NCBI GenBank assembly: GCA_021160245.1
Contig: JAGHCW010000021.1
Span: 1 to 5,148 of the forward strand
Reading direction: 5' to 3'
Source: a bacterium
GTDB taxonomy: Bacteria > B130-G9
DNA: 5,148 nt
Both the position numbers and the translations under genes were made by a program. Within the stretch, counting starts at the first letter, position 1, and each line of letters opens with the position of its first letter. Below are positions 2,684 through 5,148 of this stretch, piece after piece. A model generated the notes under the pieces. The model saw only the letters and a program-made list of their open reading frames with translations, did not search any database and was not told the DNA's origin.

Positions 2684-3814
2684 ATGGCGACGAGAGTACT
2701 TGTAACAGGCGGAGCAGGATTCATCGGCTCCCATATAGTGGATCGCCTACTTGAAGGGGGCTATGAAGTTGCGGTTTACGATAATCTGGATAGGCAGGTT
2801 CACGGCCCCGAGCAAAACATACCGGACTACTTGAGCAAAGATATTGAGTTTATCAAGGGCGATGTTCGGGACAGGGACTCGCTTTACAAAGCAATCGTCG
2901 GCAGGAATGTCGTGTATCACGAGGCGGCCGCGGTCGGCGTAGGGCAATCGATGTATGAGATCGCTCGATATACCGAGATCAACACGATGGGCGGAGCCAT
3001 CTTGCTCGATATCCTCGCCAACGAGAAGCATCAGGTTGAGAAGGTGCTTGTCGCCTCGTCAATGTCGATATATGGCGAGGGCAAATATGATTGCCCCCAA
3101 TGCGGCGCAATCTTCCCAAAGCTCCGACCCGAATCGCAGCTTGCGAATGGCGACTGGGAGATGCAGTGCCCGAAATGTGGCGCAGTTGCGAAGCCGCTGC
3201 CGACGGACGAGGACAAACCCCTCTATCCCACGTCGATTTATGCTGTCAACAAGCGTGATCACGAGGAGATGTTTTTGAGCACAGGCGTCGCCTACAAACT
3301 GCCGACCGTCGCGCTGCGTTACTTTAACGTCTATGGCCCGAGGCAGGCGCTTTCGAATCCATACACGGGCGTATGTGCCATCTTTGGGAGCAGAATCTTA
3401 AACGATCATGCGCCGATAATCTTCGAGGACGGCCTTCAGAGCCGCGACTTCATAAACGTGCGCGATATTGCCGAGGCGAATGTTCTTGCGCTTGAGAGCG
3501 ACAAGGCCAACTACCAAGTATTCAACGTCGGCTCTGGCAAGGGCATATCGGTGCTTGATATAGCGAACATCCTTATCGACAAAGTCGGCAAAGTCGAGGG
3601 CCTGACGCCTCAGATTGTCAACAAGTTCCGGGCCGGCGACATCCGCCATTGCTTTGCGGACATCACGAAGATCAAGACGCTGCTAGGATTTGCGCCAAAG
3701 GTCTCCTTCGGCGATGGCATGGCCGAGCTAACGAAATGGGTCAGCGAGCAGACTGCAACTGACGGCGTAGAGAGCGCAATCGAGGAGCTCAAGAGGCGCA
3801 ATTTGACGTCGTGA
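2684..3814 (+). CDS. NAD-dependent nucleotide-sugar epimerase/dehydratase with zinc-ribbon insert (dTDP-L-rhamnose 4-epimerase-like)
   Basis: A complete 376-residue extended short-chain dehydrogenase/reductase, cytoplasmic, expected to act on a nucleotide sugar. The Rossmann motif TGGAGFIGSH is at 8-17, the acidic residue after strand 2 (VYDNLD, 31-36) favours NAD, and GDVRD is at 59-63. The catalytic set is ASSMSIYG (124-131) with Tyr186 and Lys190 (YAVNK). Substrate-side motifs are RYFNVYGPRQ (212-221) and RDFINVRD (254-261). Two CxxC pairs, CPQC (137-140) and CPKC (162-165), lie in an insert of about 45 residues between the catalytic Ser and Tyr and look like a zinc ribbon. This insert is conserved in a subfamily often annotated as dTDP-L-rhamnose 4-epimerase (WbiB-like), so it is not a novelty here. 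The exact substrate is inference. The gene is the last of the IHF-MerR unit (four-base gap), and a group II intron begins just after its stop. Confidence 0.92.
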   Translation: MATRVLVTGGAGFIGSHIVDRLLEGGYEVAVYDNLDRQVHGPEQNIPDYLSKDIEFIKGDVRDRDSLYKAIVGRNVVYHEAAAVGVGQSMYEIARYTEINTMGGAILLDILANEKHQVEKVLVASSMSIYGEGKYDCPQCGAIFPKLRPESQLANGDWEMQCPKCGAVAKPLPTDEDKPLYPTSIYAVNKRDHEEMFLSTGVAYKLPTVALRYFNVYGPRQALSNPYTGVCAIFGSRILNDHAPIIFEDGLQSRDFINVRDIAEANVLALESDKANYQVFNVGSGKGISVLDIANILIDKVGKVEGLTPQIVNKFRAGDIRHCFADITKIKTLLGFAPKVSFGDGMAELTKWVSEQTATDGVESAIEELKRRNLTS

Positions 3815-3818
3815 AGAT

Positions 3819-3830
3819 GCGTCCGGACGC
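3819..3830. repeat. 12-base perfect palindrome between the epimerase stop and the intron
   Basis: GCGTCCGGACGC is perfectly self-complementary and is followed by TTT. It lies five bases after the epimerase stop codon and 7 to 18 bases before the candidate intron 5' ends. As RNA it could form only a four-base-pair stem with a CCGG loop and has no long U run, so it is a weak terminator candidate. It could also be part of the intron's target site. Confidence 0.35.
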
Positions 3831-3847
3831 TTTGGAGTGCGGAGGCT

Positions 3848-4327
3848 GTGCGTCCTGAAAGCTGTGTATTGTCCGAGTTGGTGAGATTCCAACCCGTTAG
3901 CCCAAAGGCATGGGAGCGGTAACCTTTGTCTTGGGAGCGTATCAGTAATGATGGGTTCTAAGCGTAGATAGGAAGGAGTTCGAGGTGTGAGGTTAATCCC
4001 CGAAACCACTGTCATCGAAGGCACCGATGCCCTGGCCTCGGCCGCAGGCAACACCGGCTGCAGAAATTGCCTATGCAGTTCGGGCCTTCCGGGGACATTT
4101 GCTCACATCGAGTATCCAGGGACAAGCACGGAACAGGAGAGACCCAGAAGCAACCGTCGATTGGTCTCGGCGGGCGCAGCGATGCAAGGGATAACCGAAG
4201 CGGTGCTGTGTCAATGGCTTTTGGGAGTCGGACCTTCTCATAGTAGTAATGAAGCCCGCGAAGGCGTCTTACGCCGAGTGGGTGGAGCGAAGGGGAAGGC
4301 CGGGCAGGGAACTCGACGGAGGGAAAG
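3848..4327 (+). ncRNA. Group II intron ribozyme, domains I-III and start of IV
   Basis: This stretch of about 480 bases has no credible protein gene and is explained as the catalytic intron RNA. Near its 5' end a stem GTTGG-TGAGATT-CCAAC (3877-3893) and the following CCCGTTAGCCC resemble the start of domain I of intron groups carrying this kind of reverse transcriptase. Internal complementarity includes AGGCAA (4046-4051) with TTGCCT (4067-4072). Near the 3' end the block GGAGTCGGACC..CTCATAGTAGTAATGAAGC (4224-4255) resembles a segment I recall from domain II/III of related introns. Exact domain borders and the exon-binding sites were not folded and are not claimed. The 5' end could instead be 3837. 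Confidence 0.7.
4318..4323 (+). promoter_or_regulatory. Ribosome binding site of the intron reverse transcriptase
   Basis: GGAGGG lies four bases before the ATG at 4328. A strong ribosome binding site at the start of the domain IV reading frame is typical for group II introns and supports this start. Confidence 0.7.
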
Positions 4328-5014
4328 ATGAGCCAGGCTCAGAAATGGACACCAGTCTGCCCGAAACTTCGTCGAGTGCAGGAATTGGCGAAAGCCAACC
4401 CGAAGGAGAGGTTCACGAGCCTCGCGCATCACATCACGCAAGACGCCTTATTGCGGTCGTTCAAGTCCCTTGATGGGAAGGCTGCAGCCGGGGTTGATGG
4501 CGTGACGAAGAAGGCGTATGGGGCGAACTTGGAAGAGAACCTGAAGGCGTTGCATGGGCGACTGAAGTCGGGCGAGTATCGAGCGACCCCTGTGCTCAGG
4601 GTTTATATCGAGAAACCTGACGGCGGCAAGCGACCGCTGGGGATGCCGACACTGGAAGACAAAATCGTGCAAGGAGCGGTTGTGGAAATCCTCAACTGCA
4701 TCTACGAGGGCGATTTCATGGGCTTCAGTTACGGCTTTCGACCGGGTCGGAGCGCACATCAGGCGTTGCAAGCGTTACAGACGGTTCTTCAGAAGGGGAA
4801 AGTGAACTGGGTGCTGGATATGGACATAAGCAAGTTCTTTGACACGATTGACCACAAAGAACTGATGTCCATAATCGAGCGTCGTGTGAAGGACAGCCGC
4901 CTGCTGAGACTGATTGGCAAATGGCTGGCAGTGGGAGCCGTGGAGGAAGATGGCCGCCGCATTCGCGGCAAGCAAGGAACGCCTCAAGACGAAAGGATGA
5001 AGGATGAAGGATGA
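4328..5014 (+). pseudogene. ltrA: Group II intron reverse transcriptase/maturase, N-terminal part, broken within the GTPQGG motif
   Basis: The frame gives 228 residues, against more than 400 for an intact intron-encoded reverse transcriptase/maturase. Clear motifs are AGVDGVT (54-60), KRPLGMPTLEDKIVQ (101-115), YGFRPGRSAHQAL (135-147) and LDMDISKFFDTIDH (163-176, with catalytic Asp166), then LLRLIGKWL (192-200) and GTPQ (217-220). The family continues GTPQGG..SP, but here the sequence switches after Gln220 to DERMKDEG and stops, because heptad-repeat DNA begins at about 4988. The YADD motif with the other catalytic aspartates, the rest of the palm and most of the thumb are missing. Maturase sequence resumes in another frame at about 5073. 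An active enzyme cannot be made. The symbol ltrA is used only in its generic sense for this family. Confidence 0.9.
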
Positions 5015-5072
5015 AGGCGGAAAAGACATCTGATCGACATTCATCCTTCATCCTTCCGCCTTCATCCTTCCA
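4988..5072. repeat. Heptad-repeat block with inverted arms that replaces part of the reverse transcriptase
   Basis: Three AAGGATG heptads (4993-4999, 5000-5006, 5007-5013) are followed by the variant AAGGCGG (5014-5020). After a spacer of about 20 bases come inverse-complement heptads TTCATCC (5040-5046, 5047-5053), the variant TTCCGCC (5054-5060) and TTCATCC (5061-5067). A perfect 17-base inverted repeat pairs 5006-5022 with 5054-5070 around a 31-base loop. The block has no coding sense and breaks the reverse transcriptase frame. Dispersed GGATGAA-type heptads are familiar from several bacterial groups, where they yield spurious peptides such as FILHPSSF. Borders are set by where reverse transcriptase similarity ends and resumes and are accurate to a few bases only. 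Confidence 0.85.
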
Positions 5073-5148
5073 CGGGTGCGTTTTGGTCGGGGATGGACTG
5101 GCGAAGATGGGGGCCCGAAGTCGGAGACGTTCGAGTTTCTGGGCTTCA
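5073..5148 (+). pseudogene. Reverse transcriptase/maturase remnant, thumb/domain X side (frame-shifted, runs off the window)
   Basis: Read with codons starting at 5073 (the frame that includes 5130), the sequence gives RVRFGRGWTGEDGG and then PKSETFEFLGF to the edge. Intron reverse transcriptases of this type have a KTRLVRFGR-like segment after the YADD region, followed by KPETFDFLGFTH. Both are recognisable here, in the correct order. This frame differs from that of the N-terminal part (4328). Relative to the family pattern, roughly 70 to 80 residues between GTPQ and VRFGR are absent and the heptad block sits in their place. Confidence 0.75.

Follow-up and report, generated by a model that had tools for sequence, protein, structure and literature searches.

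What is a block of inverted seven-base repeats doing in the reverse transcriptase (RT) gene of a bacterial group II intron, in the very place where the catalytic core of the enzyme should be encoded? The question is posed by the far end of the window, by which we mean the whole 5148 bp stretch of DNA analysed here, an entire contig (C152) of a draft MAG (G000; 3.43 Mb in 244 contigs, 94.8% complete). It touches two older puzzles. To our knowledge, heptamer repeats have been catalogued in bacteria for decades without an origin, and we know of no established role for the protein of 23S rRNA IVSs (IVP).

The host of the block is identified as a group II intron by ribozyme domains 1-4, which match the full Rfam model (RF02005), and by RT fingers and palm motifs present as far as the residues GTPQ (partial PF00078 match; 6ar1); the RT C-terminus and the intron 3' end, and with them any domain X and domain 5/6, lie beyond the contig end at 5148 (Table 1). 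The intron begins about 20 bp past the stop of an epimerase gene, directly behind a palindrome, GCGTCCGGACGC, followed by TTT (3814-3836), that resembles a terminator hairpin. The PF00078 profile match ends at GTPQ, the frame of the ORF starting at 4328 meets a stop at 5014 within the heptad block, and from 5073 the right flank translates in another frame as RVRFGRGWTGEDGGPKSETFEFLGF, bearing out a first-pass annotation of this DNA, made from its letters, in which the RT was normal to GTPQ and resumed off-frame at VRFGR..FEFLGF. That annotation also expected an intact relative to hold 70-80 residues between these points, YADD included, and alignment to two such relatives (L043, from G032, 53% identical, and L091) gives exactly 77 residues from G[TS]PQ to xRFGR or xEFGR, YADD among them. 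Its view of a deletion with replacement instead of a clean insertion is likewise upheld: positions 4988-5075 comprise 88 nt where the intact relatives have 231 nt, and an insert of about 82 nt stands in place of about 225-231 nt of RT coding sequence. The catalytic YADD is absent and the catalytic core, as had been supposed, lost; since the 77-residue segment that should hold it is replaced by the heptad block, the RT must be regarded as dead.

Table 1. Features of the intron and of the heptad block that interrupts it, in window coordinates
Feature	Position	Strand	Evidence
Group II intron	3837..5148	+	5' end GTGCG (3837) from alignment of five intron 5' ends in the genome; 3' end past contig
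Intron RNA domains 1-4	3884..4105	+	Rfam RF02005 group-II-D1D4-6, 87.4 bits, full model 1-225
Left breakpoint of the C65/C182 heptad replacement, window equivalent	4142	+	Alignment
Intron RT, N-terminal part to GTPQ	4328..4987	+	ORF; PF00078 E 9.6e-19, profile 1-121 of 205; GsI-IIC RT 6ar1 E 3e-41
Left heptad arm, AAGGATG-type units, last GGCGGAA	4993..5022	+	TRF; inverted repeat search
Core between arms, 17 nt, no gene	5023..5039	.	Sequence; inverted repeat spacing
Right heptad arm, inverted	5040..5069	-	33/34 nt match to arm of IVP-encoding cassette, sister-genus G001:C42
RT coding resumes, PRVRFGR..FEFLGF	about 5070..5147	+	Frame unlike 4328-4987

The block had been described as purely heptads, which needs correction, as about 17-27 nt in its middle are not. 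Period-7 arrays were detected by TRF at 4993-5017 and 5040-5071, and the best arm pair is built of GGATGAA heptamers, its arms 30 nt each, 87% complementary and 17 nt apart. Hairpin MFE values of -40 and -46 kcal/mol (z -5.1 and -6.9) were equalled by none of 200 shuffles. Rfam identities as an miRNA or as AniS were rejected, their sub-threshold scores being a mere reflection of the hairpin. As to a target-site duplication of the kind by which MITEs are recognised, the flanks share just the 3-nt ACG, by eye a chance-level match.

Similar arrays are plentiful in the same genome, where the three-unit GGATNNN pattern occurs 40 times, against none in the reversed control. At C21 in this genome, and at C42 in that of a sister genus (G001), inverted heptad pairs enclose the gene of a four-helix-bundle protein, which at C21 is PF05635, the 23S rRNA IVP (E 2e-18). 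Four genomes of the family contain seven PF05635 genes above cut-off, and 7-mer arrays adjoin every one, mostly with a 7-mer of its own (GGATTTC, GGATGAA, GGATAAG, GGATGGG, GAACCTT, AACTGCC and AAAGCTC). The GGATGAA cassette at C42, which supplies the 33/34 nt match to the window arm, carries its IVP gene within the 381 nt that separate its arms; the sole IVP gene of the window's own genome, that at C21, has arms of the GGATTTC and not the GGATGAA type. An arm motif with a phase break, AAGGCGGAAGGATGAAGG, was counted 20 times in G001 and twice in G000; a reversed-pattern control gave no occurrence. GGATGAA arrays in G001 are for the most part solo and unpaired, so heptads may in addition arise or spread independently of an IVP. 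At C48:5282 (L109) and C130:60109 (L113), the heptads start at the same codons near the ends of two related genes (EIRIVD, in a methylase-like C-terminus), so that arrays may prefer this particular sequence or grow from it.

The association between arrays and IVP genes extends well beyond this family. PF05635 matches were found in 71 of 193 genomes, and around 76 loci, chosen by top score instead of at random and in some cases sharing a genome, period-7 arrays number 82 at distances up to 300 bp and 11 between 600 and 1200 bp (1.86 versus 0.13 per kb; 14-fold). Period-8 arrays number 21 near (300 bp) and 3 far, other periods give little signal, and control RT loci yielded three period-7 arrays in 143 kb. 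Where arrays stand on both sides of the gene, 28 pairs are inverted and 2 direct. Flanks were compared by local alignment, 6-mer sharing on 200-nt flanks having been dropped as base-composition noise; inverted scores exceed direct ones (Wilcoxon p 5e-10), and at 46 of 62 IVP loci the inverted score lies above every far-flank control. Eight plasmid loci from cyanobacteria and a Chloroflexota member (L212-L219: AP017994.1, NZ_LR882964.1, NC_019759.1, NZ_CP128402.1, NZ_CP040287.1, NZ_LR882951.1, NZ_CP128401.1, NZ_CP112878.1) also have 7-mer-rich flanks. Several of these plasmid loci sit between defence-operon genes (drmD/methylase, DUF1156/Swt1, csx2/cas1), and a 2023 survey lists the 23S rRNA IVP among CRISPR adaptation associations (PMC10910872). 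A search for empty sites among plasmids near the Planktothrix locus (PLSDB) found all sites filled, and viral contigs gave four IVP loci, too few for an empty-site comparison.

Filled and empty versions of one site were found between fadJ and fadA (names read from translations), surveyed in 48 members of a single genus. Here the left array of the cassette follows directly on the fadJ stop, and a few bases separate the end of the right array from the start of fadA; in one species the site is empty, with 6 nt only, and in about ten species it holds 27-30 nt resembling a leftover, solo right arm. The 7-mer varies by species, and in 14 of 14 comparisons the two arms of a cassette agree better with each other than with the mean of other species' arms. 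Filled, empty and relic sites, together with this agreement, indicate that the arms change together, that cassettes can sit cleanly and that gene-less relics form.

We come now to the block itself, which is probably an IVP-less copy, relic or non-autonomous, of an IVS-like cassette with heptad arms, lodged in a decaying group II intron. It has the inverted arms of tandem 7-mers, their score of 20 equal to the median of IVP loci, and its arms are of the same type as those of the IVP-encoding cassette at C42. Since the IVP gene is missing between them, leaving the 17-nt core alone, we term the copy a relic or non-autonomous form and not an IVP element. Counting against this reading are that same missing gene, the different arm type at C21, the many solo arrays, the lack of an evident target-site duplication and the clean insertions at fadJ|fadA, made without the host deletion seen in the window and in two further intron copies (C65 and C182) described below. 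An arms-only copy with its 17-nt core would have lodged in the RT gene and displaced the YADD-bearing coding sequence, the loss either accompanying the insertion or following it through fold-back deletion. In the transcript the arms are predicted to pair into a long stem cleavable by RNase III, by analogy with the 23S IVS of Coxiella burnetii, whose terminal inverted repeat, on the upstream side of the S23p ORF, contains tandem heptamers and is cleaved by RNase III at the first of these repeats (PMC4990558); such cutting would make full cassettes tolerable within operons and rRNA. Arrays would grow and shrink by slippage, and loss of IVP genes would leave arm relics. We infer that heptad cassettes may be mobile and may be excised from RNA. 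More broadly, and with confidence only a little better than even, we propose that inverted heptamer-array cassettes with a four-helix-bundle IVP form a general class of bacterial selfish element, sited at stop codons or between the genes of operons, of which 23S IVSs occupy one habitat and many unexplained heptamer repeats (in Xanthomonas, Nostoc and here) are arms or relics.

The two further intron copies have 5' parts 93% (C65) and 92% (C182) identical to the window. Both switch at the equivalent of window position 4142 into a heptad pair of the GGATNNN type (GGATTGT...AATCCGC), which takes the place of most of the RT ORF, and both rejoin RT domain X at one common base; the breakpoints are identical, and flanking DNA and heptad copy numbers differ. 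As these junctions are identical to each other yet distinct from the window's, heptad pairs have, on this evidence, replaced intron coding sequence at least twice, one product being present at two places. The first-pass annotation suggested that heptads act as rearrangement endpoints; they are not merely that, for inverted pairs form the ends of IVP-encoding cassettes. Its idea that the intron depends on an RT supplied in trans is unsupported as stated: the draft genome contains no intact RT, its sole other RVT_1 match is a fragment in C96, and no domain 5 was found in C65 or C182 at the Rfam threshold. The C96 copy (L009, 3410-4008) is an intron remnant with the RT fragment, a domain 5/6 match and a rearranged middle. 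Read on the opposite strand, the core between the C65/C182 arms (L037:4060-4180, L038) resembles the 3' end of a protein gene (..VNFGTQKPVWVEVGAGPDGTTYVLGDCMDKPA*), for which an assembly search for a source gene found just the two copies. An ATCAGAT motif lies about 30 bp upstream of the intron 5' end in four of five copies (L037, L038, L039, L040), and AATCAGATTGACC is repeated just past the truncated 3' side of C182, so the introns perhaps sit within copies of another repeat.

The copies in C65 and C182 also help to weigh other accounts of the block. Two solo arrays could have landed or grown in opposite orientation at separate points within the RT gene, the coding sequence between them then being lost by fold-back deletion; arrays in G000 and G001 are mostly solo, and the left arm of the window, with GGCGGAAAA, resembles a solo array at C232, but IVP loci as a rule have inverted paired arms and the C65/C182 core, resembling a gene end foreign to the intron, implies that material was brought in there, so we hold this course of events to be unlikely. 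Less credible again is an assembly chimera, already entertained in the first-pass annotation, in which short-read assembly would have fused two intron fragments over a dispersed repeat. In its favour, the genome is a draft MAG, the block lies about 75 bp from the contig end, and contigs C84 and C29 end inside intron 5' ends; yet the longest stretch shared with other loci in the assembly is about 28-35 nt, short for final assembly k-mers, and heptads adjoining intron sequence on both sides would still be required. Because C65 and C182, contigs with different flanks, independently carry heptad replacements with breakpoints of their own in common, the block is unlikely to be an assembly accident. 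A simple-repeat expansion, with heptamers lengthening through slippage, replication fold-back producing the inverted pair and no mobile element taking part, is very improbable, for although C65 and C182 differ in array copy number, as Coxiella strains also do (PMC4990558), the recurrence of the phase-break arm at the places counted above implies copying.

A consistent arrangement in which inverted heptamer arms enclose IVP genes, and whose gene-less derivatives can settle within other mobile elements and disrupt them, would join the puzzle of heptamer origin to that of the role of the IVP, and the joined puzzles would become testable through empty-site surveys and RNase III assays. The literature searched seems to contain no description of such a class beyond rRNA genes, and no paper listed there ties heptamer arrays to IVP genes outside rRNA; with subscription journals thinly covered, this is weak evidence of absence.

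Comparison with known systems places the cassettes among several partial likenesses. Because PF05635 resembles Avd, the four-helix-bundle protein of diversity-generating retroelements (DGRs; PMC10053308), an RT partner for the IVP is conceivable by analogy; the likeness lies in the protein and not in a DGR RT, template or variable repeat. MITEs are similarly short, gene-less and inverted at their ends, with multi-copy arm sequence, but the ends of the window cassette are arrays of fast-changing 7-mers, target duplication was not seen and no transposase is known. The TAACTGA heptamers of Beggiatoaceae and cyanobacteria are likewise intergenic, tandem, of unexplained origin and spread over several phyla, but they stand almost always in one orientation, just upstream of start codons, and their description draws no link to IVP genes (PMC4679880). 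Closer in arrangement are the heptameric repeats GGGNATC of Xanthomonas and Nostoc (Rehm 2015), dispersed tandem 7-mers often near stop codons, with 70-75 inverted convergent pairs per Xanthomonas genome; they differ in their 7-mer, and the paper draws no link to mobile elements or IVP genes (PMC4692102). With the 23S rRNA IVSs that carry an S23p/IVP ORF, the comparison reaches the whole cassette: the window copy differs in sitting not in an rRNA helix but in a group II intron RT gene, in having no IVP gene and in the deletion of host sequence, but the two share terminal inverted repeats, heptamers in the arm and, in the full form, an encoded PF05635 protein.
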